Source of the DNA: Actinomadura rifamycini DSM 43936 | GTDB taxonomy: Bacteria; Actinomycetota; Actinomycetes; Streptosporangiales; Streptosporangiaceae | NCBI RefSeq assembly: GCF_000425065.1 | Contig: NZ_AULB01000011.1 | Span: forward strand, 62,001-126,000 | Direction of reading: 5' to 3' | Length of the DNA stretch: 64,000 bases | Made by a program: the position numbers and the translations under genes | Notes under the pieces: generated by a model | What the model was told of the DNA's origin: nothing | Seen by the model: only the letters and a program-made list of their open reading frames with translations | Database searches by the model: none | Shown here: positions 2,423-63,514 of the stretch, piece after piece | How the letters are laid out: each line of letters opens with the position of its first letter | How positions within the stretch are numbered: the stretch's first letter is position 1

Positions 2423-2439
2423 CGAGAACATTACTCTCC
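2423..2439 (-). promoter_or_regulatory. Island operator, copy 1 (degenerate)
   Basis: CGAGAACATTACTCTCC matches the palindrome YGAGAATRNNATTCTCR at most positions; both GAGAA and CTC ends are kept. It ends 21 bases before the TauD start codon. Confidence 0.6.
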
Positions 2440-2569
2440 AACGGTGAGACCGGGAAAGCCCCCTGGTCGGGGTCCCGGTGGCGGATCGTGGGGCCGCGGT
2501 GCCGGGAGTGTCGGGCGGAGTCGGTACTGGCACTCCGTTCTCGAAACTGGATGGTTGATTTGCGTGCGG

Positions 2570-2586
2570 CGAGAATGTAGTTTCCA
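2570..2586 (+). promoter_or_regulatory. Island operator, copy 2
   Basis: CGAGAATGTAGTTTCCA has a perfect left half (GAGAATG) and the variant right half GTTTCC, which is also seen at 43615. It lies 43 bases before the aldehyde dehydrogenase start, so the divergent region 2403-2629 carries one site per direction. Confidence 0.75.
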
Positions 2587-2629
2587 GCCATCAAGGAGGC
2601 AGGATGCGACTTCAGGAGGCGGGGCGAGG

Positions 2630-4066
2630 GTGAAGAACCTGCTCATCGACGGAAGGCTCGTCGAGACCGAACGGACCTATCCCTCGGTCAATCCCGCGAC
2701 CGGCGAGGAGTTCGACCGGGCCCCGGACGCCACGGCCGCCGACGCCGAGCGGGCCGTCGCGGCCGCGCGGCGCGCGTTCGACGCCACGGACTGGGCGACC
2801 GACCGGGAGTTGCGCATCCGGTGCCTCGACCAGCTCCACACGGCGCTGCTCGAGCACCGGGAGGAGCTGCGGGAACTGACGATCACCGAGGTCGGCGCGC
2901 CGCGCATGCTCACCCACGCCAACCAGCTCGACGTGCCGATCGAGATGTTCCGCTACTACGCCGACCTGCTGCGCGAGTACCCGCTGACCGAGGAGCTCCC
3001 CGACCTCGAGTCCCGCGGGCAGCGGCACCGGCGCTGGGTGGAGAAGGAGGCCGCCGGCGTCGTCGCCGCGATCATCCCGTACAACTACCCGAACCAGATC
3101 GGGTTCGCGAAGCTGGCGCCGTCCCTCGCCGCCGGCTGCACGGTGGTGCTCAAGGCCGCGCCGGACACGCCGCTCGTCACGCTGGCGCTCGGCGAGCTGA
3201 TCGCCGAGCACACCGACATCCCGCCCGGGGTCGTCAACGTCCTCAGCTCCTCCGACGCCGCGGTCGGCGAGGTGCTCACCGCCAGCCCGGACGTGGACGT
3301 CGTCACCTTCACCGGCTCGACCGCCACCGGCCGCCGGGTCATGGAGGCCGCGAGCCGCACCGTGAAGCGCGTCTTCCTCGAACTCGGCGGCAAGTCCGCG
3401 ATGATCCTGCTCGACGACGCCGACTTCGACACCGCGGCCATGTTCTCGGCCTTCATGATCTGCTCGCACGCCGGGCAGGGCTGCGCCCTCACCAGCCGCC
3501 TCCTGGTGCCGCGCGACCGGCACGACGAGATCGTCGAGAAGGTCGCGGCCAACCTCGGGCGGGTCGCGTACGGCGACCCCGGCGACCCCAAGACCTACAT
3601 GGGCCCGCTCATCAGCGAGGCCCAGCGCGACAAGGTCGACGGCATGGTCAAGCGCGCCGTCGAGGCGGGCGCGAAGCTCGTCACCGGCGGCGAGCGGGTC
3701 GACCCGGGCTTCTTCTACACGCCGACGCTGCTCGCCGGCGTCGACCCGGCCAGCGAGATCGCGCAGGAGGAGATCTTCGGACCCGTCCTCGTCGTGATCC
3801 CCTACGACGGCGACGACGACGCCGTCCGCATCGCCAACGACTCCATCTACGGGCTGTCCGGCGGGGTCCAGAGCGCCGACGAGGACCGCGCGATCGCGGT
3901 CGCGCGCCGCGTCCGCAGCGGGACGTTCAGCATCAACGGCGGCAACTACTTCGCGCCCGACGCGCCGTTCGGCGGCTACAAGCAGTCCGGGATCGGCCGC
4001 GAGATGGGCGTCGCCGGGCTCGAGGAGTTCATGGAGCGCAAGACGTTCGCCGTGGCGGCGTCGTGA
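2630..4066 (+). CDS. NAD(P)-dependent aldehyde dehydrogenase
   Basis: A full-length (478 residue) member of the aldehyde dehydrogenase superfamily. N152 in PYNYPN, the cofactor loop FTGSTATG (227-234), the general base E251 in LELGGKS and the nucleophile C285 in GQGCALTSR are all present, so it should be active in oxidising an aldehyde to its acid. The GTG start at 2630 has an AGGAGG site ten bases upstream. Its stop overlaps the following CoA-transferase start (GTGA), suggesting that the acid product is passed to CoA activation. It heads what looks like a ten-gene operon up to 13855, behind operator copy 2. The aldehyde is unknown. Confidence 0.92.
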   Translation: MKNLLIDGRLVETERTYPSVNPATGEEFDRAPDATAADAERAVAAARRAFDATDWATDRELRIRCLDQLHTALLEHREELRELTITEVGAPRMLTHANQLDVPIEMFRYYADLLREYPLTEELPDLESRGQRHRRWVEKEAAGVVAAIIPYNYPNQIGFAKLAPSLAAGCTVVLKAAPDTPLVTLALGELIAEHTDIPPGVVNVLSSSDAAVGEVLTASPDVDVVTFTGSTATGRRVMEAASRTVKRVFLELGGKSAMILLDDADFDTAAMFSAFMICSHAGQGCALTSRLLVPRDRHDEIVEKVAANLGRVAYGDPGDPKTYMGPLISEAQRDKVDGMVKRAVEAGAKLVTGGERVDPGFFYTPTLLAGVDPASEIAQEEIFGPVLVVIPYDGDDDAVRIANDSIYGLSGGVQSADEDRAIAVARRVRSGTFSINGGNYFAPDAPFGGYKQSGIGREMGVAGLEEFMERKTFAVAAS

Positions 4067-5271: not shown

Positions 5272-5307
5272 CCATCGCATCCGGGGGTTCGGCTCCGAGG
5301 AGGAACG

Positions 5308-6687: not shown

Positions 6688-6702
6688 GGGCCGGCGGCGA
6701 CC

Positions 6703-16527: not shown

Positions 16528-16544
16528 TGGAATCTATCTTCTCA
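16528..16544 (-). promoter_or_regulatory. Island operator, copy 3 (reductase side)
   Basis: On the minus strand it reads TGAGAAGATAGATTCCA, close to the variant at 43615. It ends three bases before the reductase start codon, and its centre is 22 bp from that of copy 4. Confidence 0.65.
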
Positions 16545-16549
16545 ATCTG

Positions 16550-16566
16550 GGAGAGTGCAATTCTCG
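16550..16566 (+). promoter_or_regulatory. Island operator, copy 4 (ligase side)
   Basis: GGAGAGTGCAATTCTCG has a perfect right half (ATTCTC) and a one-base change in the left half. It lies 24 bases before the ligase start. Confidence 0.7.
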
Positions 16567-18204: not shown

Positions 18205-18221
18205 TGAGAATACTATTCTCA
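18205..18221 (+). promoter_or_regulatory. Island operator, copy 5 (near perfect)
   Basis: TGAGAATACTATTCTCA is a perfect 7-3-7 palindrome. It begins on the base after the upstream ligase stop and ends 23 bases before the next start codon, marking an internal promoter. Confidence 0.88.
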
Positions 18222-19431: not shown

Positions 19432-20859
19432 ATGGCGTGGGAGACCATCCCGCGGCTCGTGCGCGGTGCCGGCGACCGCTTCGGTGACGCCGAGGCGGTC
19501 GTCGACGGGCCGCTGCGGCTCACGTTCGCCGAGCTGGCGGAGCGCGTCCGGACGGCCGCGGGCGCGTTCCGCGCGCAGGGCGTCGGCAAGGGCGACCGGG
19601 TCGCGGTCTGGGCGCCGAACTCCGCCGAGTGGATCATCGCGGCGTTCGGCCTGGTGACCGCCGGCGGAGTGCTGGTCCCGGTCAACACCCGCTTCCGGGC
19701 GGAGGAGGCCGCCGACGTCGTCCGGCGGAGCGGCGCCAAGGCGGTCCTCGTCCAGCAGGGGTTCCTCGGCCGGGAGTACACGGCGCCGGACGGCGTGCCG
19801 GTGATCGACCTGAAGTCGGACTTCCTCGCGAGCGGGTCGCCGTTCGAGGAGGACGTCCGCCGCGACGACATCGCCGACATCATCTACACCTCGGGCACGA
19901 CCGGCCGGCCCAAGGGCGTCATGATGGACCACGGGCAGACGCTCCGGCTGTACGCCGAATGGTGCGACCTCGCCGACCTGCGGGAAGGCGACCGCTACCT
20001 CATCGTCAACCCGTTCTTCCACACGTTCGGGTACAAGGCGGGCTGCATCGCGTCGCTGATCCGCGGCGCGACGATCCTGCCCGTCCCGGTGTTCGACGTG
20101 GACCGGGTCCTCGAACTGGTCGAGCGCGAGCGGGTGACGATGCTGCCCGGCCCGCCCACGCTCTACCACTCGCTGCTGGAGGCCAAGGGCGACCGCGACC
20201 TGTCGTCCCTGCGCGCCGCCGTGACGGGCGCCGCCGACATCCCGGTCGAGCTGATCCGCCGGGTCCGCGGCGAACTGCCCTTCCAGTCGATCATGACGGG
20301 CTACGGGCTGACCGAGGCGGGGACGGCCACCGCGTCCCGGCCGGGCGACTCGTTCGAGGACATCGCGACGACCGTCGGCACCCCCTGCGACGGCGTCGAG
20401 GTGCGCATCGCCGACGACGGCGAGGTGCTCGTCCGCGGGTACAGCGTCATGCGCGGCTACTTCGACGACCCGGAGGCCACCGCGGCGGCGATCGACGCCG
20501 ACGGCTGGCTGCGCACCGGCGACCTCGGCACGGTCGACGACCGGGGGTACGTGCGGATCGTCGGCCGCAAGAAGGACATGTTCATCGTCGGCGGCTTCAA
20601 CGCCTACCCGGCCGAGATCGAGGGGTTCCTGCTGGAGCATCCGGCGGTCGCGCAGGCCGCCGTGATCGGGGTGCCCGACGAGCGGATGGGGCAGGTCGGC
20701 AAAGCCTTCGTCGTCCGCCGCGGCGACCTCGCCGCGGACGAGCTGGTCGCCTGGAGCCGCGAGCGGATGGCCGGCTACAAGGTGCCGAAGCACGTCGTCT
20801 TCCGCGACGAGCTGCCGCTCAACGCCACCGGGAAGGTCATGAAGGACCGGCTCGAATGA
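19432..20859 (+). CDS. FadD3-like acyl-CoA ligase
   Basis: This 475-residue adenylate-forming ligase has the motifs YTSGTTGRPKG, a FadD3-like segment NPFFHTFGYKAGC, PGPPTLYHSLL, YGLTEAG, GWLRTGD, KDMFIVGGFNAYPAEIE and catalytic Lys in NATGKVMKD. Those segments resemble actinobacterial FadD3, which activates the bicyclic HIP acid in steroid breakdown, so a bulky alicyclic acid is a reasonable guess. The start is two bases after the amidohydrolase stop, and the stop overlaps the next start (ATGA). Confidence 0.85.
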   Translation: MAWETIPRLVRGAGDRFGDAEAVVDGPLRLTFAELAERVRTAAGAFRAQGVGKGDRVAVWAPNSAEWIIAAFGLVTAGGVLVPVNTRFRAEEAADVVRRSGAKAVLVQQGFLGREYTAPDGVPVIDLKSDFLASGSPFEEDVRRDDIADIIYTSGTTGRPKGVMMDHGQTLRLYAEWCDLADLREGDRYLIVNPFFHTFGYKAGCIASLIRGATILPVPVFDVDRVLELVERERVTMLPGPPTLYHSLLEAKGDRDLSSLRAAVTGAADIPVELIRRVRGELPFQSIMTGYGLTEAGTATASRPGDSFEDIATTVGTPCDGVEVRIADDGEVLVRGYSVMRGYFDDPEATAAAIDADGWLRTGDLGTVDDRGYVRIVGRKKDMFIVGGFNAYPAEIEGFLLEHPAVAQAAVIGVPDERMGQVGKAFVVRRGDLAADELVAWSRERMAGYKVPKHVVFRDELPLNATGKVMKDRLE

Positions 20860-23246
20860 CGCACCCCCACGGTTCCCGGGCGCGGCCCCGCGCCCGGCCG
20901 ATCCGGCGGCGCATCGCGCTGCTGCTCGCGGTCCCCCTGGCGTCGCTGCTGGCGCTGTGGGCGTTCGCCGCGACGACGACGCTGTCGGACGCGCGGCAGC
21001 GGCTCACCTTCGCCACGGTGCGCGACCGGGCGGGCGAGCCCGCCGGGCTGCTGACCCAGGCGCTGCAGGGCGAGCGGTCGGCCGCGGTCGGGCTCCTCGC
21101 GGACGGCGCGGCGGGCGCGGGCGAGTTCCGCGACCGGGTGGCGGCCACCGACGCGGCGGTGGCCGCCTTCCAGAGGATGGCGCGCTCGCCCGACCTGCGG
21201 GAGTCCGAGGGGATGCTGCCCCGGCGGCTGCAAACCATCAGCGGCTCGTTCGACGGCCTGCGGGAGCTGCGCGACCGCATCGAGGCCGGCTCGATCACCC
21301 CGCTGGAGGTGATCGACGGGTACAGCGCGGTCGTGGACGACGCCATGCGGCTGGTCGCGGCGCTCGCGAGCATCGGCGAGGTGTCGATCTACCAGCACAG
21401 CAACGCGCTGCTCCAGGCGTACTGGGCGCTGGACTTCATGCTGCGCGAGGACGCGCTCCTGCGGGCCGTCCACGCCGGGGACGGGCGGATGGGCGGCGCC
21501 GAGCGCACCGCGTTCGCGGGCTGGGCGGCCGAGGGCCGGCTGCTGTTCGAGAACGCCCGCACCGGCGTCGACGGCGAGCCCGCCCGGCTCGTCCAGGAGT
21601 TCGCCGGCTCCGCGGCCTACACCGGCTACCGCGGGCTGGAGGACGGCGTGGTCCGCGCGGGCGCGGTCCCGCGCGCCGCCGAGTGGCGCGCCGCCGTCGA
21701 CGGGGCGCTGCCCGGCTGGCAGAAGGCGGCCGAGGAGGCGGGGCTGGCGCTGCAGACCGAGGAGGTCGACCCCGCCGGGCAGCGGATCATGCTGCGCTTC
21801 TACCTGGCCGGCGGGCTCGGGCTGCTCGCCGTGGCCGTCTCGGCGGCGCTGTCCCTGCTGTTCGCGCGCCGGATCGCCGACGAGCTGCGGAACCTGCAGC
21901 GGACGGCCCAGCAGCTCGCGCACGAGCGGCTGCCGAGCGTCGTCGCGCGGCTGCGCCGGGGCGACCGGGTCGACGTCGAGGCCGAGACGTCCCGGACGGC
22001 CGCCGCGCGGACCACCGAGATCGTGCTGGTCGGCGAGGCGTTCGACGCCGTGCAGCGCACCGCGATCGGCACCGCGGTCGGGGAGGCGGAGCTGCGCCGG
22101 AACATCAACCGCGTCTTCGTCAGCCTGTCGTGGCGGAGCCAGTCGCTGCTGCAGCGCCAGCTCCGGCTGCTCGACGAGATGGAGCGCGGCGCGTCCAGCC
22201 CGGAGGAGCTGGAGAAGCTGTTCCGGCTCGACCACCTCACCACCCGCATGCGGCGGCACGCCGAGGGCCTGGTGATCCTGTCCGGTTCGCCGACCGTGCG
22301 GGCGTGGGACCAGCCGGTGGACGCCGAGGACGTGGCCCGCGCCGCCGTCGCGGAGGTCGAGGACTACACGCGGGTCGAGGTGGCCGCCGTGTCGTCGGGC
22401 GCGGTCCGCGGCGCCGTCGTCGCCGACGTCATCCACCTGCTGGCCGAGCTGATCGAGAACGCCACCGGGTACTCGCCGCCGGCCACCGAGGTGACCGTGA
22501 GGATCGAGCGGGTCGCGAACGGGCTGGCGGTGGAGGTGGTCGACCGCGGCGTCGGCCTGCACCCCGACGAGCTGGCCGAGCTGAACCGGCGGCTGGCCGA
22601 AGCGGTCGAGTTCGACCTGGCCGACGACACCGACCGGCTCGGCCTCTTCGTGGTGTCCCGGCTGGCCGCGCGGCACGGCGTCAAGGTCGTCCTGCAGCCG
22701 TCCCCGTACGGGGGCACGACGGCGGTCGTGCTGCTGCCGAACGAGCTGCTCGCCGCGGGAGCCGGGGACGTCCCGGCGGCGGGCCCGCCGCCCGTGGAGG
22801 CGCCGCACCGGTCCGGGCGGCGGCTGGACCGCCCGGACCGTCCCGCCGCCACGGCCGCGCCCGTCCCCGCCGCCGCGTCACCGCCCCGGCAAAAGGCGCC
22901 GCCCCGGCAGGAGGCGGCGCCGCTGGGAGCCCCCGCGGGGGAGCGGCCGCCCGGGGGCGCCGTCCCGGGCGAGGCGGAGCCGAGCGAGCGGACCGGGCTG
23001 CTGCCGAAGCGGGTCCGGCAGCGGAACCTGGCCCCGCAACTGCGCGGACGGCCGCAGGGGCGGCACGCGGCGGGCGCGGGGGCGCCCGGAGCGGCGGGGG
23101 AGCCCGCCGACGACGAGCCGGATCCCGAGGCCGGCCGCGCGCTGATGGCGTCCCTCCAGGCCGGCTGGATGCGCGGCCGCGAAGAGGACGAACCGGGCGA
23201 CCCCGACGATCCGACCGACGACGACGGCCCCGGCGGGCGGGTGTGA
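20856..23246 (+). CDS. Conservon-type (CvnA-like) sensor histidine kinase with NIT domain
   Basis: The 796-residue protein has membrane helix 1 at about 20-41, an extracytoplasmic helical nitrate/nitrite-sensing-type domain, helix 2 at about 313-338, a HAMP-like linker, a DHp-like helix region and a HATPase with N-box ELIENATGYSPP near 530 and G-box VDRGVGL. The long C-terminal tail is Pro/Ala/Glu-rich and ends in the ALMASLQAGWMRGR segment common in actinomycete CvnA proteins. In conservons cvnA is followed by cvnB, cvnC and cvnD; here only a wrecked cvnD follows. The ATG overlaps the ligase stop, so the sensor is now co-transcribed with catabolic genes. Confidence 0.85.
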   Translation: MTHPHGSRARPRARPIRRRIALLLAVPLASLLALWAFAATTTLSDARQRLTFATVRDRAGEPAGLLTQALQGERSAAVGLLADGAAGAGEFRDRVAATDAAVAAFQRMARSPDLRESEGMLPRRLQTISGSFDGLRELRDRIEAGSITPLEVIDGYSAVVDDAMRLVAALASIGEVSIYQHSNALLQAYWALDFMLREDALLRAVHAGDGRMGGAERTAFAGWAAEGRLLFENARTGVDGEPARLVQEFAGSAAYTGYRGLEDGVVRAGAVPRAAEWRAAVDGALPGWQKAAEEAGLALQTEEVDPAGQRIMLRFYLAGGLGLLAVAVSAALSLLFARRIADELRNLQRTAQQLAHERLPSVVARLRRGDRVDVEAETSRTAAARTTEIVLVGEAFDAVQRTAIGTAVGEAELRRNINRVFVSLSWRSQSLLQRQLRLLDEMERGASSPEELEKLFRLDHLTTRMRRHAEGLVILSGSPTVRAWDQPVDAEDVARAAVAEVEDYTRVEVAAVSSGAVRGAVVADVIHLLAELIENATGYSPPATEVTVRIERVANGLAVEVVDRGVGLHPDELAELNRRLAEAVEFDLADDTDRLGLFVVSRLAARHGVKVVLQPSPYGGTTAVVLLPNELLAAGAGDVPAAGPPPVEAPHRSGRRLDRPDRPAATAAPVPAAASPPRQKAPPRQEAAPLGAPAGERPPGGAVPGEAEPSERTGLLPKRVRQRNLAPQLRGRPQGRHAAGAGAPGAAGEPADDEPDPEAGRALMASLQAGWMRGREEDEPGDPDDPTDDDGPGGRV

Positions 23247-23256: not shown

Positions 23257-23512
23257 GTGACCTCGCCCGCCTTCGAGGCCCCGCCGCGCGCCCCGTCCGG
23301 CGAACCGGACGGCGTCCCGCTGCACACGCCGAAGATCCTGGTGGCGGGCGGGTTCGGCGCCGGCACGACCACGCTCGTCGGCGCGGTCGGCCAGGGTGCG
23401 CCCCCTGCGCACCGAAGAAACCCTTACCGACGTCTCCGGCGGCGTGCGGGTGTACGCGTTCGGCGTGCCCGGCCACGCCGTGCCGCTCCCCACGTGCGCG
23501 AGCCACGTTTGA
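23257..23512 (+). pseudogene. Broken CvnD-type GTPase gene
   Basis: The GTG frame at 23257 encodes a CvnD-like N-terminus with TPKILVAGGFGAGTTTLVGAV, the P-loop region of conservon GTPases. At about 23392-23398 the homologous reading moves to the +1 frame and continues as VRPLRTEETLTDVSGG, the next CvnD block. It then jumps to VRVYAFGVPG, resembling the later LFGTPGQ block, and stops at 23510-23512. So there is one frameshift, an internal loss of roughly 30 codons and loss of the whole C-terminal part. The cvnB and cvnC genes are missing. Confidence 0.8.
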
Positions 23513-23530
23513 CCATCGGATTCTCGGTAA

Positions 23531-23547
23531 CGGTATTGGCATTCTCA
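23531..23547 (+). promoter_or_regulatory. Island operator, copy 6 (half-degenerate)
   Basis: CGGTATTGGCATTCTCA keeps a perfect right half; the left half is poor. A second ATTCTC lies at 23519-23524. The site ends 25 bases before the mutase start. Confidence 0.5.
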
Positions 23548-23572
23548 TTTTCTGGAAGTAACGTATCCGTCG

Positions 23573-25150
23573 ATGAACGACATCGTGCAGACCTCGTCCG
23601 GCATCCCGCTCCGCCCGGTCTACGGACCGGCGGACCGGGCCGCCGATCCGCCGGCGCCGGGGGAGTTCCCCTTCACGCGCGGCAACTACCCGTCCGGGTA
23701 CCGCGGGCGGCTGTGGACGTTCCGGCAGTACTCGGGCTTCGGGACGGCGGAGGAGTCCAACCGCCGCTACCGGTACCTGCTGGACCAGGGCGGCACCGGG
23801 CTGTCGGTGGCGCTCGACCTGCCGACGCAGTGCGGCCACGACTCCGACGACCCCGAGGTGAGCGAGGAGGTCGGGCGGGTCGGCGTCGCCGTCGACACCC
23901 TGGCCGACGCCGAGATCCTGTTCGACGGCATCCCGCTCGACAAGATCAGCACCAGCTTCACCATCAACGGGACCGCCGCGATCCTGCTGGCCTTCTACGT
24001 GGCCGCCGCCGAGCGCAAGGGCGTGCCCCGGGAGAAGCTCACCGGGACGATCCAGAACGACATCCTCAAGGAGTACGCGTCCCGCGGCACCTGGATCTGG
24101 CCGCCCGAGCCGTCGCTGCGGCTGATCGCCGACACCATCGAGTTCTGCGCGGCCGAGGTGCCGAAGTTCAACGCGATCTCGGTGGCGGGCGCGCACTTCC
24201 GCGACGCCGGCGCGAACGCCGTCCAGGAGATGGCGTTCACGCTCGCGGACGGGGTCACCTACTGCGACACCGTGCTGGAGCGCGGCCGGATGTCGATCGA
24301 GAAGTTCGCCCCGCAGATCTCGTTCTTCTTCTACACGCACGGCGACTTCTTCGAGGAGATCGCCAAGTACCGCGCGGGACGGCGGCGCTGGGCGACGATC
24401 GTCCGGGAGCGGTACGGCGCGACGACCGACAAGGCGTCGATGTTCCGCTTCGGCTGCGTCGCGGGCGGCGCGTCGCTGTACGCGCCGCAGGCCCGCAACA
24501 ACGTCGTCCGGGTCGCCTACGAGGCGATGGCCTCGGTGCTGGGCGGCGTCCAGTCGATGTTCACCGCCGCCTGGGACGAGCCGTTCGCGCTGCCCAGCGA
24601 GGAGTCGGCGACGCTCGCGCTGCGCACCCAGCAGATCCTCGCGCACGAGACCGGCGTCACCCGCGTCGCCGACCCGCTCGGCGGCTCCTACTTCGTCGAG
24701 GCGCTCACCGACGAGACCGAGGCGCGGATCGTCGAGATCATGGACGACCTCGACCGGCACGGCGGCATGGTCCGCGCCATCGAGGACGGCTACCTGCAGG
24801 GGCTCATCGCCGACGAGGCGTACGCGCTGCACCAGGAGATCGAGGCGGGCGCGAAGCCGGTCGTCGGGGTGAACCGGTTCGTGTCCGACGAGCCCCCGCC
24901 CGAGCTCGCGACCTACGAACTGGACCGGGCGGGCCGCGAGCGGCAGCTCGAACGGCTCGCGAAGGTCAAGGCCGACCGCGACGACGCGGCCGTCCGCGCC
25001 CGGCTCGCCGACCTGTCCCGCGCGGCGGAGGGTGACGCCAACCTCATGCATCCCCTGATCGACTGCGCCGCCGCGTACTGCACGGTCGGCGAGATGGTCG
25101 CCGCGCTCAAGGCGGTGTGGGGCGAGTTCCGGCAACCGGTGGTGTTCTGA
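23573..25150 (+). CDS. Coenzyme-B12-dependent acyl-CoA mutase, large subunit
   Basis: A stand-alone mutase TIM-barrel subunit of 525 residues, lacking a B12 domain (as in isobutyryl- and 2-hydroxyisobutyryl-CoA mutases). Substrate-pocket residues, by remembered alignment to methylmalonyl-CoA mutase: Y53 in RQYSGF matches Tyr89, R171 in [10 protein letters not shown] matches Arg207, and H208 in AGAHFRDAG matches His244. Tyr and Arg normally mark carboxyl-bearing substrates such as methylmalonyl- or ethylmalonyl-CoA. However, the residue before His, usually Tyr, is A207, which would enlarge the pocket. The start has only a weak ribosome site. The stop overlaps the B12 subunit gene. Confidence 0.88.
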
Positions 25151-25545
25151 TGCCCGCGAGAGTACTGGTGGCGAAGCCCGGCCTGGACGGCCACGACCGG
25201 GGCGCCAAGATCGTCGCGCGGGCGCTGCGCGACGCCGGCTTCGAGGTCGTCTTCACCGGCATCCGGCAGCGCGTCGAGGACATCGTCGCGATCGCCGTGC
25301 AGGAGGACGTCGCCGTCGTCGGGCTGAGCATCCTGTCCGGGGCGCACGTCGCGCTGACCGGCCGCACCGTCGCGGCCCTGCGGGAGGCCGACGCGTCCGA
25401 CATCGCCGTCATCGTCGGCGGGACGATCCCGGCGGCGGACGTCCCCAGGCTGACCGACGCGGGCGCGGCCGCCGTCTTCCCGACCGGCACCGCCCTCGAC
25501 GCCATCGTCGCGGAGGTCCGCGCGCTGACCGCGGCGCCGGCCTGA
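25150..25545 (+). CDS. B12-binding subunit of the acyl-CoA mutase
   Basis: The 131-residue protein is a bare cobalamin-binding domain: [10 protein letters not shown] gives the D13-x-H15-x2-G18 motif, with H15 the lower axial ligand of base-off cobalamin; SILSGAH and VIVGGTIP are the other two nucleotide-tail motifs. Start and stop overlap as TGATG with the large subunit, which fixes the start at 25150. It must pair with the large subunit to make an active enzyme, an arrangement like IcmA/IcmB or HcmA/HcmB rather than classical methylmalonyl-CoA mutase. Confidence 0.92.
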
Positions 25546-27622: not shown

Positions 27623-27639
27623 TGAGAATGACATTCTCT
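27623..27639 (+). promoter_or_regulatory. Island operator, copy 7
   Basis: TGAGAATGACATTCTCT matches the consensus at all but the last base. It lies 22 bases before the preferred ligase start and 5 bases after the CoA-transferase stop. Confidence 0.85.
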
Positions 27640-32800: not shown

Positions 32801-32817
32801 CGAGAATAGCATTCTCA
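32801..32817 (+). promoter_or_regulatory. Island operator, copy 8, touching a start codon
   Basis: CGAGAATAGCATTCTCA is a full match. Its last base is the A of the ligase ATG, and it ends 38 bases upstream of the divergent SDR start, so one site may control both genes. Confidence 0.88.
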
Positions 32818-34265: not shown

Positions 34266-35421
34266 GACCGCCCCCGAAGCCGTCATCGTGTCCGCGCTGC
34301 GCACCCCCATCGGCACCGCGTTCAAGGGGACCCTGCGCGACACCACCGCCTTCGACCTGGCCCACCACGTCGTCTCCCGCGCGGCGTCCGGCCTGGACCC
34401 CGACCTCATCGACGACGTGATCCTCGCCGAGGGCCTGTACGGGGGCGGCGTCGTGGCCCGGCACGCGGCGCTGACCGCCGGGCTCACCGGCGTCCCCGGC
34501 CTCGCCCAGAACCGGCACTGCGCCGCCGGGCAGGCCGCCGTGCAGAGCGCCGCCGCGGGCATCCGCGCCGGGATGGACGACCTGGTCGTCGCGGGCGGCG
34601 TGAACTCGGCGTCCACCGCCCCGAAGTCGTCGTTCCGGGTGGACGGCGAGTGGACCGACTGGTTCCCGCCCACCCACCCCGACCGGCCGGACGCCCCCAA
34701 CCGCGACATGTCGATCACCGTCGGCTGGAACGCGGCCGTCGAGGCGGGCGTGTCCCGGGAGGAGATGGACGCCTGGGCGCTGCGCTCGCACCGCAACGCC
34801 GTCCGCGCCATCGACGAGGGACGGTTCGACGCGGAGATCGTCCCGATCGAGACGCCGCACGGCACGTTCGCCGTCGACGAGCACCCGCGCCGCGACACCA
34901 CGCTCGAGAGGCTCGCCGCGCTGAAGCCGCTGCACCCCGAGATCGAGGGGTTCAGCATCACCGCGGGCAACGCCTGCGGAGCCAACGACGGCGCCGCCGC
35001 GCTCGTCGTCGCCGGCGACCGGTTCGCCCGCCGGCACGGGCTGCCCGCGCTGGCGACCGTCCGGTCGTGGGCGTCCGTCGGCGTGGACCCGCGCATCACC
35101 GGGCTCGCGCCGGTGAAGGCGATCCCGAAGGCGCTGGCCCGCGCCGGGATGACGTCCGCGGACGTCGACGTGTTCGAGATCAACGAGGCGTTCGCGGCGA
35201 TGTGCGTCGCGACCGTCGGCCGGCTCGGGCTCGACCCGGACCGGGTCAACGTCAACGGCAGCGGCTGCTCGCTCGGCCACCCGGTCGCCGCGACCGGCGC
35301 CCGGATGCTGGTCACGCTGGTGCACGAGCTGCGCCGCCGCGGCGGCGGCGTCGGCGTCGCCGCGATGTGCGCGGGCGGCGGGATGGGCTCGGCCACCGTG
35401 ATCGAGGTCCCCGCCCCGTGA
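34258..35421 (+). CDS. Thiolase (acetyl-CoA acyltransferase)
   Basis: The 387-residue protein has the complete thiolase triad: acylated C88 in NRHCAAGQ, H341 in CSLGHPVAATG and proton-shuttle C371 in MCAGGGMG, plus the NEAF motif in FEINEAFAAM. It should cleave a 3-ketoacyl-CoA to a shortened acyl-CoA and acetyl- or propionyl-CoA in the last step of a beta-oxidation turn. It overlaps the ligase before it and the MeaB gene after it (GTGA). Confidence 0.92.
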   Translation: MPETAPEAVIVSALRTPIGTAFKGTLRDTTAFDLAHHVVSRAASGLDPDLIDDVILAEGLYGGGVVARHAALTAGLTGVPGLAQNRHCAAGQAAVQSAAAGIRAGMDDLVVAGGVNSASTAPKSSFRVDGEWTDWFPPTHPDRPDAPNRDMSITVGWNAAVEAGVSREEMDAWALRSHRNAVRAIDEGRFDAEIVPIETPHGTFAVDEHPRRDTTLERLAALKPLHPEIEGFSITAGNACGANDGAAALVVAGDRFARRHGLPALATVRSWASVGVDPRITGLAPVKAIPKALARAGMTSADVDVFEINEAFAAMCVATVGRLGLDPDRVNVNGSGCSLGHPVAATGARMLVTLVHELRRRGGGVGVAAMCAGGGMGSATVIEVPAP

Positions 35422-36413
35422 CGGACGTGCCTGCGGCGGACGTGCCCGCGGCGGGCGCGCCGGTTTCGGGGGCGCCCGGGACGGACGTCCCCGGGCTGCT
35501 CGCCGCGGCCCGCCGCGGCTCGCCCCGGGCGGCGGGCCGGCTGCTGAGCCTCGTCGAGGGGGAGCGCCGCGGCGAGGTCCTCGCCGCCCTTGACGCGGAC
35601 CCGGTCCCCGCCCCCGCCTCCGGAGCGGGGACCGCCCGGGTCGTCGGGCTGACCGGGCCGCCCGGCGCGGGCAAGTCGACGACCGCCGCCGCGCTCGTCG
35701 GGGCCTACCGGGAGCGCGGGCTGCGGGTCGCGGTGCTCGCGGTCGACCCGTCCTCCCCGTACAGCGGTGGCGCGCTGCTCGGCGACCGCATCCGGATGGC
35801 CGCGCACACCACCGACCCCGGCGTGCTCATCCGCTCGCTGGCGACGCGCGGCCACCTCGGCGGCCTGGCCGCCGCCGTGCCCGCCGCCGTCCGGCTGCTG
35901 GGCGCGCTGGCGTTCGACCTGGTCCTGGTGGAGACGGTCGGCGTGGGGCAGTCCGAGATCGAGGTCGCCGCCGTCGCCGACCCCACCGTCGCCGTCCTCA
36001 CGCCCGGGGCGGGCGACGCCGTCCAGGCGGCGAAGGCCGGGCTGCTGGAGGTCGCCGACCTGCTGGTCGTGAACAAGGCCGACCGGGACGGCGCCGCGCG
36101 CACCGTCCGCGAGCTGCGGATCGAGACGGGCGCCCCGGTGCTCACCCTCGTGGCGGCCGAGGGGACGGGCCTGCCGGAGCTGGTCGAGGCGATCGACGCC
36201 CACCACCGCGCCGACACCGCGGAGCGGCGGGCGTCCCGCGCGCACGCGCAGATCCTCTCGCTCGCCCACACCCGCCTGCGCGCCCACCCGGAGCTCGCCC
36301 GGCTCGCCGCCGTTGTCGCCGACGGCCGCCACGACGCCTACACGGCGGCGGACCTGCTCCTCCGCCGGTCCCGCGAGCCCGGCGGGGAGGCGGAGGAGCA
36401 GGGGCCCGGGTAG
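35418..36413 (+). CDS. meaB: MeaB/ArgK-type GTPase chaperone of B12 acyl-CoA mutases
   Basis: A 331-residue G3E GTPase: Walker A GPPGAGKS at 80-87, VDPSSPYSGGALLGDRIRM, ETVGVGQSE (switch/Walker B) and NKAD for guanine specificity. MeaB proteins guard and reload adenosylcobalamin in methylmalonyl-CoA-type mutases. The obvious client is the mutase at 23573-25545, about 10 kb upstream and under the same operator. GTG 35418 overlaps the thiolase stop. The N-terminus carries a near-duplicate DVPAA-DVPAA and a Pro/Ala-rich lead of about 25 residues not typical of the family. Confidence 0.92.
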   Translation: MTDVPAADVPAAGAPVSGAPGTDVPGLLAAARRGSPRAAGRLLSLVEGERRGEVLAALDADPVPAPASGAGTARVVGLTGPPGAGKSTTAAALVGAYRERGLRVAVLAVDPSSPYSGGALLGDRIRMAAHTTDPGVLIRSLATRGHLGGLAAAVPAAVRLLGALAFDLVLVETVGVGQSEIEVAAVADPTVAVLTPGAGDAVQAAKAGLLEVADLLVVNKADRDGAARTVRELRIETGAPVLTLVAAEGTGLPELVEAIDAHHRADTAERRASRAHAQILSLAHTRLRAHPELARLAAVVADGRHDAYTAADLLLRRSREPGGEAEEQGPG

Positions 36414-37352: not shown

Positions 37353-37369
37353 TGAGAATGCTATTCTCG
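37353..37369 (-). promoter_or_regulatory. Island operator, copy 9
   Basis: TGAGAATGCTATTCTCG is a full match to the consensus. It lies 30 bases upstream of the thioesterase ATG and only eight bases beyond the end of the neighbouring TetR gene. Confidence 0.87.
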
Positions 37370-38052: not shown

Positions 38053-38125
38053 GTGTAGAACCTTACTGCACAGTATCGACAGTCGCCGGTACCGGCACCG
38101 CACTACGGCGCGCACGGTAACGAGA

Positions 38126-38156
38126 CTATGACTTTCCTAACTCAAGAGTGTCATAG
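38126..38156. promoter_or_regulatory. Inverted repeat upstream of the TetR gene
   Basis: Arms CTATGAC and GTCATAG are separated by 17 bases, which contain an inner ACTC-AA-GAGT dyad. It is AT-richer than its surroundings and lies 74 bases upstream of the TetR start in the 130-base gap after the dehydrogenase operon. An autoregulatory operator is more likely than a terminator because the stem is AT-rich. Confidence 0.45.
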
Positions 38157-41845: not shown

Positions 41846-42169
41846 TCAGACCACGGGCTCCACGATGAGGTCCAGGTACGCCGCGCCGGAGTCGGGGACG
41901 CGGGGCTGCTTCCACACCTCGACGGGGAACGACACCATGACCAGGCCCTGCATGAGGTGCATCAGGGTGCGGGCGTCCTCGGGCAGGTCGTCCCACGGGT
42001 GCCGGTCGATGTAGGCGATGGCGTCCTCCAGGCGGGGGAACGCGGCGTCGTAGAACGCCTGCATCTCCTCCATCGAGCTGGCGAGGCGCTTGGCGTACCG
42101 CTCGGGCTCGGTCGCCAGGGCCCAGCCCGCGTACGGCTCGAGGTCGGCGAATTCAGCGGGCAGCGGCAT
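41846..42169 (-). CDS. Small Rieske-associated protein of unknown function
   Basis: The 107-residue protein is acidic and helical (EFADLEPYAGWALATEPERY; SSMEEMQAFYDAAFPRLEDAI), with no Cys cluster or membrane segment. It overlaps the Rieske gene by 17 bases and ends one base before the amidohydrolase start, with an AAGGAG ribosome site. I recognise no named family. Size and position would suit a small beta-type or stabilising partner of the oxygenase, but the sequence does not resemble the NTF2-like beta subunits of ring hydroxylases. Confidence 0.7.
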   Translation of the reverse strand: MPLPAEFADLEPYAGWALATEPERYAKRLASSMEEMQAFYDAAFPRLEDAIAYIDRHPWDDLPEDARTLMHLMQGLVMVSFPVEVWKQPRVPDSGAAYLDLIVEPVV

Positions 42170-43421
42170 CGCGGTGCTCCTTGACGTGGTCGCGGGCGAC
42201 TTTGTGCAGGTGACGCAGGAGGATCTCCTGGTCGTTGAGGGGGAACTCGGTGACGGCGCGGCCCTTGAGCATGGTCTGCGTGGCCTCGAGGGTGTTGGCG
42301 TCCTGGAGCGCGTACTCCTTGAACGTCACCGCGGCGAGTTCGTGGCCGAGGCGCTCGCGGGCGTTCTTCGGCGGGACGAAGTACAGGCTCGTCTCGAACA
42401 CGTGCCGGTCGACGGCCGTCGGCCAGTAGTGGTACGTCAGGTACCAGCCGGGCGCCCAGACGAGCAGCATGAAGTTCGGGAACAGGACGAAGGAGTCGCT
42501 GCCCCACGCCTTGTGGCGGGCCGGGTTGAGGCCGGGCGGCAGGGTGTCGATCCCGTCGATGTCGGGCCGGTCCCAGGGGCCGAACAGCCCGCTGCGCAGC
42601 ACCCGCTCGATCGGCTTGACCATGCTCGGGTCCTTGGGCGGGGACATGCCGCCCCAGGACGAGATCATGGAGTGCGGGCCGTCGAGCTTGTAGTGCAGCG
42701 CCTCGTAGCCGTAGCTGAACAGCTTGTCCGCCTCGCCCTTGACGGCCTGCTTCTGGTGCAGGACGGGCGCGTGGTAGAACTCCGCGAACGCGTCGATGAA
42801 CAGCTTCCAGTTGCTGCCGATCTCGGCCCGGTAGCTGTACACCTCGGTCATCTCGTGGAAGGGGTAGCCCTCCAGGCCCTTGGCCATCTCGCCGAGGTAG
42901 TCGGTGAGCGGCGCGGCGTCCGGGTCGAGGTTGACGAAGACGAACCCCTCCCACACCTCGCACCGCACGGACTTGAGCCCGTACTCGGACTTGTCGACGT
43001 CGAAGAACTCCTCCTCCTGCTGGATGAAGGTCAGCTCTCCGGCCAGGTCGTAGCGCCAGGCGTGGTACTTGCAGGTGAACTGGCGGCAGGTGCCCTTGAC
43101 CTCCTCGCCGGGGAAGTCGTTCCAGACGAGCTTGTTGCCGCGGTGCCGGCACACGTTGTGGAACGCGCGGACCTGCTTGTCCTTGCCGCGGACGATGATC
43201 AGAGACGTGTCCGCGACGGCGAGTTCCTTGGTGAAGTAGCTGCCGACCTTCGGCACCGACTCGACGCGGCCGACGTTCAGCCACGTCCGCTTGAAGATCG
43301 CCTCGCGCTCGGCCTCGTAGTGCGCGGGGTCGATGGAGTCGTTGTAGTCGACGGGTGCCGTGCCCAGTTCGGGATAGTGCTCGGTCCAGCTGCCGGCGGC
43401 GGGTTTCGGGAAGTGGGGCAA
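42153..43421 (-). CDS. Rieske non-heme iron oxygenase, alpha subunit
   Basis: A 422-residue oxygenase. The Rieske cluster is held by C91-x-H93 (CRHRG) and C117-x2-H120 (CKYHAWRY). The mononuclear iron site has H217-x4-H222 in FYHAPVLH, preceded by D210, the usual electron bridge. It likely hydroxylates an acid or acyl-CoA, with electrons from the KshB-like reductase at 15454, since no reductase is encoded nearby. The TTG start at 43421 has GAGAGG eight bases upstream. It heads a six-gene minus-strand operon behind operator copy 10. Confidence 0.92.
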   Translation of the reverse strand: MPHFPKPAAGSWTEHYPELGTAPVDYNDSIDPAHYEAEREAIFKRTWLNVGRVESVPKVGSYFTKELAVADTSLIIVRGKDKQVRAFHNVCRHRGNKLVWNDFPGEEVKGTCRQFTCKYHAWRYDLAGELTFIQQEEEFFDVDKSEYGLKSVRCEVWEGFVFVNLDPDAAPLTDYLGEMAKGLEGYPFHEMTEVYSYRAEIGSNWKLFIDAFAEFYHAPVLHQKQAVKGEADKLFSYGYEALHYKLDGPHSMISSWGGMSPPKDPSMVKPIERVLRSGLFGPWDRPDIDGIDTLPPGLNPARHKAWGSDSFVLFPNFMLLVWAPGWYLTYHYWPTAVDRHVFETSLYFVPPKNARERLGHELAAVTFKEYALQDANTLEATQTMLKGRAVTEFPLNDQEILLRHLHKVARDHVKEHRDAAAR

Positions 43422-43455: not shown

Positions 43456-43472
43456 CGAGAATGGCATTCTCA
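43456..43472 (-). promoter_or_regulatory. Island operator, copy 10
   Basis: CGAGAATGGCATTCTCA is a full match on the plus strand and symmetrical on the other. It lies 34 bases upstream of the Rieske start codon. Confidence 0.88.
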
Positions 43473-43614
43473 TTTGTGGATCGTAGGTTCTCACGGGTGG
43501 CGGCGGACGTCAATCCGCCGGGGCCCGGAACCCGGTGAAGCCGGTCGCCGCGGAGGGCCGCCTCCGGTGCCGCCCGCTCCCGCCCCCTCCACTGAACGGT
43601 TGATTCTCGTAAAA

Positions 43615-43631
43615 TGAGAAGATAGTTTCCG
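43615..43631 (+). promoter_or_regulatory. Island operator, copy 11
   Basis: TGAGAAGATAGTTTCCG is the GTTTCC-type variant also seen at 2570 and, nearly, at 16528. It lies 24 bases before the four-Cys protein start. An extra ATTCTC half-site is 12 bases further upstream. Confidence 0.7.
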
Positions 43632-46164: not shown

Positions 46165-46773
46165 TTGACCGAACAACGGCCGTACGCCGCCCTCCTCGCG
46201 AAGGGGGAGGACCGCCGACAGCGGATCCTGACCGCCGCGCAGCGCCTGCTGAAGCGGCACGGATGGCGCGGTATCACGCTCGGGCGGATCGCCCGGGAGG
46301 CCGGGGTGAGCCCGGCCGGCCTGCTGCACCACTTCGAATCCAAGGAAGCCCTGCTCCACGCCGCCGTCGACGCGCGCGACGCCTACGACGAGGCGCACGC
46401 CGACATGGACGCCGACATCATCGAGCAGCTCGAGGGAGTCGCCGAGCGGTTCCACCGGGCACCCGACCTGGTCGGCATGTTCGCCGTCCTCCTGATGGAG
46501 AACCTTGACCCCGACGATCCGCTGCACGACCGCATGTTCGGCCGCTACCGGGCCTCCGTGCGCACCGTCGCCGAAGGCATCCGGCGCGGCCAGCGCGCCG
46601 GCCGGTACCGCCCCGACGTGGACGCGGACGTGAAGGCCGTGGAGATCGTCGCCTTCCTCAACGGGATAGAGACATCATGGCTGCTGGACCCTTCGATTCC
46701 GCTGACCGAGGTGTTCAAGGAGTACACCGGGTCGCTCGCCCGGCAACTCGCACCCGCCGCCGATACACCTTGA
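46165..46773 (+). CDS. TetR-family transcriptional regulator
   Basis: A 202-residue regulator whose head reads RILTAAQRLLKRHGWRGITLGRIAREAGVSPAGLLHHFESKEALLHAAV, a clear TetR helix-turn-helix with recognition helix SPAGLLHHF. The TTG at 46165 was chosen because GGAAGGAG lies eight bases upstream; the longer GTG start at 46132 falls inside the palindrome. The last residues overlap the start of a hypothetical gene (TTGA), so the two are translated together. Confidence 0.87.
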   Translation: MTEQRPYAALLAKGEDRRQRILTAAQRLLKRHGWRGITLGRIAREAGVSPAGLLHHFESKEALLHAAVDARDAYDEAHADMDADIIEQLEGVAERFHRAPDLVGMFAVLLMENLDPDDPLHDRMFGRYRASVRTVAEGIRRGQRAGRYRPDVDADVKAVEIVAFLNGIETSWLLDPSIPLTEVFKEYTGSLARQLAPAADTP

Positions 46774-51475: not shown

Positions 51476-51492
51476 GAAGAATGACGTTCTTG
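51476..51492 (-). promoter_or_regulatory. Island operator, copy 12
   Basis: GAAGAATGACGTTCTTG keeps the AGAATGAC core and symmetrical TTCTT. It lies 55 bases upstream of the SDR start. GTTCTCG 51465-51471 provides another half-site. The remaining 138-base gap between 51421 and 51558 holds nothing else recognisable. Confidence 0.65.
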
Positions 51493-51558: not shown

Positions 51559-52950
51559 TCAGCCCGCCCAGACCTCGCGCACGGCGCCGGCCCCGAGCGA
51601 CCCGAGGGCGTCCCGGAGCGGCGCGTGCAGGAGGACCAGGTCGGCGGGCGCGCCCGCGCGGACGCGGCGCGGCGCCCCGCCCGGCTCGCCGGGCGGGGCG
51701 AGGTAGGCGCGCAGCGCCGCCGCCGGGCCGATCGCCTCGCCCGCCCCGAGGACGGCCCCGGACCGCGTGCGGCGCCGGACGGCCGCGTCCATGACGGCCC
51801 ACGGGTCGGCGGGCCCGTACGGGGCGTCGCTCGACAGCCCGACCGGGACGCCCGCCGCGAGGAGGCCCGCGCACCGGTACAGGTCCGGGCGGTCGGCGGC
51901 GGGGACGTCGCGGAGGTAGTCGTCGCCGCGGTCGGTGATGAACCCCGGCTGGGTCACCACGCGCAGCCCCCGCGCGGCGAGCCCGTCCGCCGTCTCGGCC
52001 GGGACGAGCGCGGCGTGCTCGATGCGGTCGCCCGGCCGCGTGCCCGCCTCGTCGAACGCGGCCAGCAGCAGGAACAGGGCCTCGCGGGTGACGCAGTGGA
52101 CGGCGACCGCGCGCCCCGCCGCGTGCGCGCGCCCGATCCGCGCGACGAGGCCGTCCAGCGGCGGCAGCCCGGAGTCCGCGAGGACGATCTTGTACGGGCC
52201 GGTGGTGACGCGCGGGGGGAGCGGCTCGGCGGGGCCCTCCGGCGGGACGCCCAGGAGGTGGACGCGCTGGGGGAGCGCGCCGCCGCGGACGGCCGCCCCG
52301 ATCGCGGCGAGCGCGGTCCCGTCCAGGTCGGGGGTCGCGTCGGTGACGGCGGTGACGCCCCAGCGCAGCAGCCGCGCGCCGACCCCCGCGAGGTCGGCGG
52401 GCGGCGCGGGCGGCAGCCGGCCGCGGAGCCAGGCGTCCGCCCGCCACAGCCGTCCGGTCGGCGCCCCGTCCGCGCCGCGCTCGATGCCCGGATGGCCGCC
52501 CGCCGCGAGGCCCGCCGCGCGCACGGCGGCGGAGTTCAGCGTCCACAGCGCGCCGCTCCGGTGCTGGAGCCGGACGGGACGGTCGGCGCGGAACGCGTCG
52601 AGGCCCGCGGCGTCGAGGTGCCCGGCGACGCCCTCGGCGTAGCCCGTCCCGCGGATCCAGCCGTGCGCGTCGGGCGCCGCGCCGCGCAGCGCCGCGGCGA
52701 GCCCGTCCGGCGCGGTGACGTGCGGCGGCCCGCAGGGCACCGACCGCTCCGCGGCGGCCATGGCGTGCAGGTGCAGGTGGTGGTCGCACAGACCGGGCAG
52801 CAGCGCCCCGCCACCGCACTCGACCGTCCGCTCGCCGGCCCGCCGCACCAGCCCGGCGCCGACCTCGGCGATCCTGCCGTCCGCGACCCGGACGTCCGCG
52901 CGCACCCGCCCGTCGACCTCCGCGTCCCGCAGCAGCAGGGGGCCGGTCAC
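51559..52950 (-). CDS. YtcJ-like (amidohydrolase_3) metal-dependent hydrolase
   Basis: The 463-residue protein has the HxH metal motif in LCDHHLHLHAMA near residue 55, a mid-barrel GPYKIVLADSG strand where the metal-bridging Lys sits, VAVHCVTREA and RIEHAALVP histidines, and LSSDAPYGPADP with the Asp. It is a member of the amidohydrolase_3 group hydrolysing amide or ester bonds. The GTG overlaps the CoA-transferase stop (GTGA). No island operator precedes this two-gene unit. Confidence 0.83.
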   Translation of the reverse strand: MTGPLLLRDAEVDGRVRADVRVADGRIAEVGAGLVRRAGERTVECGGGALLPGLCDHHLHLHAMAAAERSVPCGPPHVTAPDGLAAALRGAAPDAHGWIRGTGYAEGVAGHLDAAGLDAFRADRPVRLQHRSGALWTLNSAAVRAAGLAAGGHPGIERGADGAPTGRLWRADAWLRGRLPPAPPADLAGVGARLLRWGVTAVTDATPDLDGTALAAIGAAVRGGALPQRVHLLGVPPEGPAEPLPPRVTTGPYKIVLADSGLPPLDGLVARIGRAHAAGRAVAVHCVTREALFLLLAAFDEAGTRPGDRIEHAALVPAETADGLAARGLRVVTQPGFITDRGDDYLRDVPAADRPDLYRCAGLLAAGVPVGLSSDAPYGPADPWAVMDAAVRRRTRSGAVLGAGEAIGPAAALRAYLAPPGEPGGAPRRVRAGAPADLVLLHAPLRDALGSLGAGAVREVWAG

Positions 52951-55268: not shown

Positions 55269-55285
55269 TGAGAATACTAATCTCG
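55269..55285 (+). promoter_or_regulatory. Island operator, copy 13
   Basis: TGAGAATACTAATCTCG matches the consensus except for one base. GAGAACATCG follows at 55291, an additional half-site. The palindrome ends 59 bases before the dehydrogenase start. Confidence 0.8.
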
Positions 55286-56421: not shown

Positions 56422-56423
56422 CG

Positions 56424-59250: not shown

Positions 59251-59261
59251 TGGCCGGGGTT

Positions 59262-60998: not shown

Positions 60999-61025
60999 CG
61001 GCGATCTCCTTGACGCGGCAGGGGA

Positions 61026-62222: not shown

Positions 62223-62232
62223 CACCGCTCCC

Positions 62233-63213
62233 TCACCGGTTGACGTCGACGACGATGCGGCCGCGGACCCGCCGTTCGAGGAACCGGCCGGCCGCGGCGA
62301 CGGCCTCGCCGAGCGCGATCTCCTCGGTCATGGCGTCCAGCGCGTCCGGGTCCAGGTCGCGCGCCAGGCGGTCCCATGCCGCCGTGCGCCGCGCGCGGGG
62401 CGCCGACACGCTGTCGATGCCGAGCAGCGACACGCCCCGCAGGATGAAGGGGGCGACGGAGGCGGGGAAGTCCATGCCCTGGGCGAGCCCGCACGCGGCG
62501 ACGGCGCCGTCCCGGCGGGTCTGCGCGCAGGCGTTGGCGAGCGTGCGGCTGCCCAGGGTGTCGACGACGCCCGCCCAGCGCTCCTTCTGCAGCGGCCTGC
62601 CCGGACCGGCGAGGCCGGCGGCGTCCACGACGGTGTCCGCGCCGAGCCGCCGCAGGTAGCCGGCCTCCGCCGCCTTCCCGGTGGACGCGGCCACGGTGAA
62701 CCCGGCCCGCGCGAGCAGTGCGATCGCGACGCCGCCGACGCCGCCCGTCGCGCCCGTCACCAGCACCTCGCCCCCGCCGGGACGCACGCCGCGGTCGAGC
62801 AGGGCGGCCACGCACAGGCTCGCGGTGTACCCGGCCGTGCCGATCGCCATGGCCTGCCGGGAGCCGAACACGGCGGGCAGCGGGACGAGCCAGTCGCCGT
62901 TCACGCGGGCCTTCTGGGCGAGCCCGCCCCAGTGGCTCTCGCCGGCGCCCCACCCGTTGAGGACGACGCGGTCGCCCTCCTTCCAGTCCGGGTGGGCGCT
63001 CTCGGCGACGGTGCCCGCGAGGTCGATGCCGGGCACCATCGGCCACGCGCGCACGACGGGGGAGGCGCCGGTGATGGCGAGCGCGTCCTTGTAGTTGAGC
63101 GTGGAGTATTCGACGTCGACGCGGACATCGCCGTCCGGCAGGTCGGCCTCGTCGAGGCGCGTCACTTGGGCCCGGGGAGAGCCGTCTTCGGTGATCAGGA
63201 TCGCCGAGAACAT
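62233..63213 (-). CDS. acuI: AcuI/YhdH-type NADPH acryloyl-CoA (enoyl-CoA) reductase
   Basis: The 326-residue medium-chain reductase matches the AcuI/YhdH family almost along its length: [67 protein letters not shown] and the NADPH motif [10 protein letters not shown]. Zinc ligands are absent, as in this family. AcuI reduces acryloyl-CoA to propionyl-CoA. It may do so here or reduce another short enoyl-CoA. It begins a minus-strand unit with the hydratase and ligase. Confidence 0.9.
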
Positions 63214-63497
63214 TGGCGAAACCGTCCTTCCTGAAAGCCGCGAGAAAACGGACGCGCCGGGACCGTTCGCCCCGCCCGGCCCGCTTCACGGGCCGTTGAC
63301 CTGGCCGGAGGCGGCTCCGGGCAGGAAATCGAAAAGGACGCCGCGGATGTGCGGCCGGTGGTGCGCGGGCAGCGATGCGCGGCCGGTGAACGCCGTTCCG
63401 GCGTTTCGCCGCGGCCGCCGCGAAGCGGGATCGGCCGGTTCTCCGCCGTGCGTTTCCACGGCGGTCACCGGCGCCGGTCGGTGCCGATTCCTCGTAG

Positions 63498-63514
63498 CAA
63501 GAACATCATTCTCG
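63498..63514 (-). promoter_or_regulatory. Island operator, copy 14, distant from its gene
   Basis: CAAGAACATCATTCTCG has a perfect right half and a good left half. It is 284 bases upstream of the acuI start, much further than other copies, so a long leader or an unseen small gene may lie between. Confidence 0.65.

Follow-up and report, generated by a model that had tools for sequence, protein, structure and literature searches.

A palindromic operator predicted for the TetR-family regulator T1 and a catabolic regulon in Actinomadura rifamycini

The window analysed here—a stretch of 64,000 nucleotides from Actinomadura rifamycini DSM 43936 (C8:62001-126000 of the 8.39-Mb genome G000; GC content 74.5%)—carries a recurrent palindrome, GAGAAT-N3-ATTCTC. 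With high probability this is the operator of a TetR-family repressor encoded in the window, here called T1, and of its paralogue T2, through which the operons of a catabolic pathway would be controlled. The palindrome as an observation is confirmed, and the reading of its sites as a catabolic regulon—put forward in an initial annotation of the window—is supported by the comparison of related loci. Positions refer to the window, with coordinates below 1 lying in its upstream flank; start codons come from a simple in-house gene caller, and distances to them are approximate.

Distribution and placement of the palindrome

The initial annotation had listed 14 sites under one pattern. All 14 sequences are present; 11 match the pattern with at most three mismatches, whereas 16528, 43615 and 51476 do not, and six rather than the claimed seven are near perfect (at most one mismatch). 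That chance is an unlikely source holds true, as the window contains 25 matches on both strands at up to three mismatches against 1.4 expected and a maximum of 7 in 100 shuffles; one match with three mismatches, 24052, falls inside the mutase gene. Proximity to start codons was likewise borne out, with 13 of the 14 sites within ~60 bp of a start by the in-house calls and 63498 more than 300 bp off. The idea of a single shared palindrome needs correction: ten sites are palindromic operators, whereas three (2570, 43615 and 16528) belong to a second class, class B, and one (23531) is a variant.

Our main weight matrix, built from 136 distinct sites of 65 loci with Actinomadura, Actinocorallia and three metagenome-assembled loci left out, finds 12 sites of at least 16 bits, each intergenic by the in-house gene calls, in a contiguous 124 kb that includes the window, and none in 20 Markov-1 simulated sequences. 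Ten of these matches, at 16.9-36.5 bits, are sites of the initial list (2423, 16550, 18205, 27623, 32801, 37353, 43456, 51476, 55269 and 63498), and the remaining two lie outside the window at C8:46117 and C8:59408. For a second matrix, trained on all 80 loci around named T1 relatives, the mean over 100 column-permuted controls was 0.13 sites of at least 16 bits and the maximum 2. With this second matrix the other four listed sites (2570, 43615, 16528 and 23531) score 0.1, 4.1, 6.3 and 6.9 bits, in unspecified order; their dismissal as spurious was dropped in view of class B and of the mutase-promoter alignment. The sequence GAGAANNNNNTTCTC occurs nine times in the whole genome, six of these within 46 kb of the cluster, and its reversed control does not occur at all.

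Placement was counted over 90 loci—the 80 around named T1 relatives and 10 from other T1 genomes—which are 84% coding by the in-house caller. Among 206 distinct GAGAA-N5-TTCTC sites, 172 precede a called start by no more than 150 bp, 34 are elsewhere between genes and none is within a gene, the opposite of an even spread over coding sequence. When the last five bases are permuted in eight ways (neither TTCTC nor TTTCC), 17 sites result in total, 13 of them in genes.

The comparison of orthologous promoters covered distinct promoters of 100 loci, several of which share a species. The site is kept in 26 of 28 promoters of the short-chain dehydrogenase/reductase (SDR) 32002, in 17 of 19 of the ligase 32865, in 30 of 35 of the thioesterase, in 67 of 78 of T1 (at 16 bits or more), in 20 of 25 of the acyl-CoA dehydrogenase (ACAD) at -2570, and in all of those of the reductase 15454 (8/8) and the amidohydrolase 18245 (5/5). 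Sites at 16591 (2/4), 43707 (5/11) and 2630 (3/5) are less well kept. Genes internal to the Rieske operon almost never carry one (0/51, 0/50, 1/48, 0/48 and 1/44). At the level of sequence, comparison of this kind establishes the palindrome, where it lies and its association both with T1 and with the same genes across families.

The TetR-family regulator T1 and its association with the palindrome

T1 is very probably the regulator that reads the palindrome. It is the last gene of the operon behind the 43456 operator, and both T1 and T2 exceed the PF00440 cut-off of 24 bits (36.4 and 42.6 bits). T2 lies at C8:58710-59339, ~2.7 kb upstream of the window, is 63% identical to T1 overall and identical over TVQEVVDRSRQSLRSFYQHFDGKHELL, and is divergent from an acyl-CoA dehydrogenase gene, the divergent promoter holding a 29-bit site. 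Among named relatives of T1, the nearest (94% identical) comes from Actinomadura sp. CNU-125.

The association was assessed in 393 genomes of the class, each at least 90% complete, with a T1 relative at E 1e-70 or better defining a T1-positive genome. All 47 T1-positive genomes contain the exact palindrome (222 sites), as opposed to 24 of 346 T1-negative ones, which hold 26 sites and in 22 cases a single one; the reversed control is present in 5 of the 393. Four genomes with weaker relatives only (best E 2.1e-46 to 2.9e-37) fall into the T1-negative group and lack the palindrome. G090, G103, G165, G286 and G318 each have a single exact site, located upstream of the T1 match at a distance of 92-93 bp. 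Around the 80 named T1 relatives, 212 sites with at most one mismatch were found in 1.46 Mb, none for the reversed control; 78 of these loci have at least one site, and L096 and L132 have none. In a first set of 59 genomes, including that of A. rifamycini, the Y..R form of the motif is present in 9 and a T1 relative (E 1e-20) in 11, with both in 8; the exceptions are G031, with one motif and no T1, and G004, G042 and G052, with T1 relatives and no Y..R form.

Across 123 close T1 relatives, the helix-turn-helix segment hardly varies except at residues 54, 67, 75 and 76, and four distant relatives differ at Gln68 (three of the four), Asp64 and His81. The AlphaFold2 model of T1 is all-helical with a mean predicted local distance difference test score of 74.7, but of 52-69 over residues 21-80, which leaves the DNA-binding part weak. 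Compared with solved structures, T1 matches distant TetR proteins only, KstR and KstR2 chains being weak matches, and a plasmid search with T1 at E 1e-25 gave no match.

Class B elements, target operons and the pathway

Class B, GAGAA[GT]NTA[AG]TTTCC, would consist of half-operators inside a likely promoter, mostly behind TTGATTCTC. It occurs in 29 of the 393 genomes—25 of the 47 T1-positive versus 4 of the 346 T1-negative ones—and its reversed control in 5. The core GAGAA-N5-TTTCC has 35 copies in the 90 loci, 34 of them intergenic, as compared with 0-8 for eight other permutations. Among 35 exact class-B matches from the window and at least 110 loci, a TTG stands exactly 17 bp before TA[AG]TTT in 32 and an ATTCTC 13 bp before GAGAA in 23, counts that are inflated by close species. 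Because of the TTG at this spacing, the half-sites appear to cover a likely promoter, and we interpret class B as a promoter in which operator half-sites are embedded and to which T1 would presumably bind. The matches at 2570 and 43615 are the only exact ones in the 8.39-Mb genome.

At the mutase promoter, the second half-site (23531) is kept in three of seven orthologous upstream regions (L213, L217 and, in Nocardia higoensis, L123); in L225 a canonical site takes its place, and the orthologues in L221, L228 and L271 have no site within 160 bp upstream. Behind the half-sites, TTTTCTGGAAGTAACGTAT (23548-23572) is almost unchanged in N. higoensis (L123) and is a possible promoter or activator site.

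Pfam scans of 50 window-region proteins, a subset of the genes, bear out the gene functions that the initial annotation had linked by the motif: acyl-CoA ligases, Rieske oxygenase, P450 and luciferase-type flavin enzymes, acyl-CoA dehydrogenases for β-oxidation, a branched-chain-type ABC importer, a mutase with separate B12 subunit, MeaB and a thioesterase. Aldehyde dehydrogenase, CoA-transferases and amidohydrolases were also found. T1 is accompanied by these genes in other families as well—in G156, for example, by an 84% identical mutase—and Actinomadura, Mycobacterium, Nocardia, Rhodococcus and other actinobacteria have retained the pathway.

The best alignment of the mutase is with the 2-hydroxyisobutyryl-CoA mutase 4r3u, whose split architecture it resembles (23573-25545), and it carries a Tyr and an Arg at the positions that these residues occupy in human methylmalonyl-CoA mutase. 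These two residues point to a carboxylated acyl-CoA as the substrate. A specialised route of oxidation would agree with the F420-type flavin enzymes at 25603 and 12057 and with the mycofactocin-coupled SDR encoded in the upstream flank. As the pathway substrate we guess at a branched or alicyclic acid, for instance a terpenoid; a literature search on the gene set yielded no candidate. The catabolic operon behind the 18205 operator also encodes a NIT-domain histidine kinase-like protein (20856-23246).

Elsewhere in the genome, on contig C26, a 22-bit site (C26:39516; L034:7517) lies between a CoA-transferase gene and an SDR-aldehyde dehydrogenase-P450-ferredoxin-ligase series, and a 25-bit site (C26:48842; L034:16843) lies ahead of a thioesterase-superfamily gene (Pfam). 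Both are possible distant members of the regulon.

Table 1. Predicted operators, class-B elements and selected genes of the window (bits refer to operator matrix scores)
Feature	Position	Strand	Setting	Remarks
Operator (predicted)	2423..2439		ahead of TauD-SDR-CMD operon (-)	24.2 bits
Class-B element	2571..2585	+	ahead of aldehyde dehydrogenase-importer genes	exact; TTGATT at 17-bp spacing
Class-B-like element	16529..16543	-	ahead of reductase 15454	one mismatch
Operator (predicted)	16550..16566		between reductase (15454, -) and ligase (16591, +)	16.9 bits
Canonical operator (predicted)	18205..18221		ahead of amidohydrolase/ligase operon (18245)	36.5 bits
Two ATTCTC half-sites, 21 bp apart	23510..23547	+	ahead of B12 mutase (23573)	first 9.8 bits
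Methylmalonyl-CoA-mutase-like large subunit	23573..25150	+		Pfam E=4.4e-199; nearest solved chain 4r3u
Canonical operator (predicted)	27623..27639		ahead of acyl-CoA ligase operon (27662)	31.9 bits
Canonical operator (predicted)	32801..32817		between SDR (32002, -) and ligase-thiolase-MeaB operon	31.5 bits
MeaB-type GTPase	35418..36413	+		Pfam E=7.5e-73
Canonical operator (predicted)	37353..37369		ahead of thioesterase (36459, -), just behind T1 stop	31.6 bits
T1, TetR-family regulator, 224 aa	37378..38052	-		Pfam TetR_N E=4.5e-9
Degenerate operator (predicted)	38121..38137		upstream of T1 itself	10.8 bits
Rieske oxygenase	42153..43421	-	head of T1-ending operon	Pfam
Canonical operator (predicted)	43456..43472		ahead of Rieske-amidohydrolase-ACAD-T1 operon (-)	31.1 bits
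Class-B element TTGATTCTC-N7-GAGAAGATAGTTTCC	43600..43630	+	ahead of 43656 operon	exact match
Weaker operator (predicted)	51476..51492		ahead of SDR (50659, -)	16.9 bits
Operator (predicted)	55269..55285		ahead of acyl-CoA dehydrogenases (55345)	24.8 bits; kept 2/3
Operator (predicted)	63498..63514		~670-bp intergenic gap upstream of ADH (62233, -)	21.5 bits; >300 bp from either called start

Mechanism, rival readings and known systems

In the mechanism that we propose, each half-site would be contacted by one subunit of a T1 dimer, and T1 would occupy or adjoin the promoter of its own gene or operon as well as those of roughly twelve operons that serve a single catabolic pathway—spanning uptake, CoA activation, Rieske, P450 and flavin oxygenation, β-oxidation and B12 rearrangement. 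At the class-B promoters, half-sites would be embedded in the -35/-10 region. T1 might block these operons until a pathway intermediate binds to its C-terminal domain and causes release; this effector is most likely a CoA thioester, given the type of pathway and the general precedent of TetR regulators of lipid catabolism. T1 binding, repression over activation, the effector and the substrate are what we infer in this scheme. More broadly, one repressor family with two operator architectures might govern a whole undescribed actinobacterial pathway (B12, F420, mycofactocin, Rieske/P450) for a branched or alicyclic natural product, with the class-B half-sites split across -35/-10 and about two helical turns apart—a tentative extension that we consider rather doubtful. 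If true, the operons would be released in graded order, as set by the two architectures.

Experimenters gain from the analysis a named candidate regulator, a matrix for its operator and the operons that it is predicted to target. Operator release would be a direct route to the inducer and, hence, to the compound degraded via the B12 mutase.

Several observations weigh against this explanation. The Fisher p of 2.8e-43 for the association of T1 and palindrome ignores kinship and is overstated, and in the association search seven first-look candidates were scored per genome. T1 and T2 are indistinguishable as the binder. The site upstream of T1 itself is degenerate (Table 1), and a stricter promoter scan at 18205 found no consensus promoter. 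Sites at 27662 (3/9), the mutase (2/6), 50659 (1/4) and -16997 (3/14) are poorly kept, and only 6 of 45 Rieske orthologues have one directly before them, a low count that may be explained by the CMD gene that often precedes the Rieske gene in mycobacterial loci. Conversely, genes without a site here carry one in relatives (-1710, 29/56; 10661, 19/36; 5317, 9/13). The initial annotation had placed the motif in front of most transcription units; several units in the window, namely 47508, 51559-52947, 54204 and 57719, have no site. Finally, the 26-bit site C6:33176 (L033:7177), ahead of a LacI-type gene and flanked on its other side by that of a peptide-type ABC binding protein, shows no apparent connection with the pathway.

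The sites might be read by T1 as an activator that needs them, which would agree with their location upstream of starts and with the activation known for some TetR proteins. We regard this as improbable, since blocking is matched by the operators that overlap the likely ligase start codon at 32817 (32801 operator) or promoter-like hexamers—TTGCGA-N17-TACTAT at 18205, where a loose in-house scan places the -10-like TACTAT within the operator, and the class-B hexamers with their 17-bp spacing. The regulator might also be another TetR protein of the same region, encoded at 46183 (46183-46773) or 47508, with T1 as a mere neighbour, and relatives of 46183 are indeed found solely in T1-positive genomes (29/29). 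However, in a search that covered 46183 only (E 1e-35, eight candidates per genome), 18 T1-positive genomes have no 46183 relative and still bear the palindrome in 18 of 18 and class B in 15 of 18 cases, and in single-site genomes the site is located at T1. The protein 46183 was set aside on this ground, and we hold the neighbour explanation to be quite unlikely. That the sites are a product of chance or a structural repeat—palindromes can form hairpins, and a repeat might be mobile—has next to no probability, given that none of the 206 sites is in a gene and that the same genes bear the site across families.

A further reading equates the palindrome with "motif X", a palindromic motif that Bragin 2019 describes for 14 operons, of which phytosterol raised 12 more than 3-fold, and ties to G155_05115, the orthologue of Rv0767c (PMC6593523, available excerpts). 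In these excerpts, the TetR family, the palindrome, autoregulation and the P450, SDR and aldehyde dehydrogenase targets all resemble the T1 system. The Rv0767c motif is given as a logo only in the accessible part of Balhana 2015 (PMC4482099). A haem-signature pattern matched five of seven genomes, of which the G422 match is another P450 locus without aldA, leaving a cyp51/aldA-type locus in four (G111, G208, G308 and G360, taken as mycobacterial from gene content; three consist of one contig and one of two). Its TetR protein is absent from the T1 relatives found at E 1e-12 in G111, G208 and G308, and its intergenic region has GGACA-N2-TGTCC near each start, with one altered copy in G308, no GAGAAT palindrome and a best T1-operator matrix score of 4.5 bits. 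The same GGACA-N2-TGTCC stands near each start of Rv0767c-type TetR/aldA intergenic regions at L264:10270-10460 and in L266-L268. GGACA-N2-TGTCC is likely the operator of this locus, which fits the GAC/GTC enrichment reported at Rv0767c sites in chromatin immunoprecipitation (ChIP) data (PMC10312376, as far as excerpted). By the different TetR protein and palindrome at the locus, though without comparison of the motif X letters themselves, motif X was rejected as a prior description, and its identity with the GAGAAT palindrome is very unlikely. The second-best T1 relatives (31-38% identity, five loci in four genomes), considered as Rv0767c, are other TetR proteins; one of their loci, L256, has a 28-bit site ahead of an amidohydrolase orthologue.

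A literature search over open-licence papers found no description of the GAGAAT palindrome, and the view of the initial annotation that no operator of this form has been published stands, with most subscription papers, figures and supplements outside this search. The T1 system is very probably an autoregulated TetR catabolic regulon, a known kind of system. Like small-regulon TetR repressors in general, it has a local TetR gene and a palindromic operator at its own promoter; unlike them, it would extend to a dozen or so operons across ~79 kb and to a second, promoter-embedded operator class. With the motif X/Rv0767c regulator it shares a suggested autoregulation, a palindrome and oxygenase and dehydrogenase targets, as far as the excerpts of those sources go, whereas T1 is a different TetR protein at a different locus—compared by locus and not by the letters of motif X. 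Closest in kind are KstR and KstR2 of mycobacteria and Rhodococcus, which are autoregulated TetR proteins that control many operons of one catabolic pathway and of which KstR has a box of the AAC..GTT type. Their cholesterol regulons are conserved across actinobacterial genera (PMC3388012, in the excerpts available), as is the T1 regulon. In contrast, the T1 operator sequence and gene set differ from theirs—in line with the initial annotation, which had set the palindrome apart from the KstR boxes—and T1 reaches 21.4 bits against the KstR model with its cut-off of 280.

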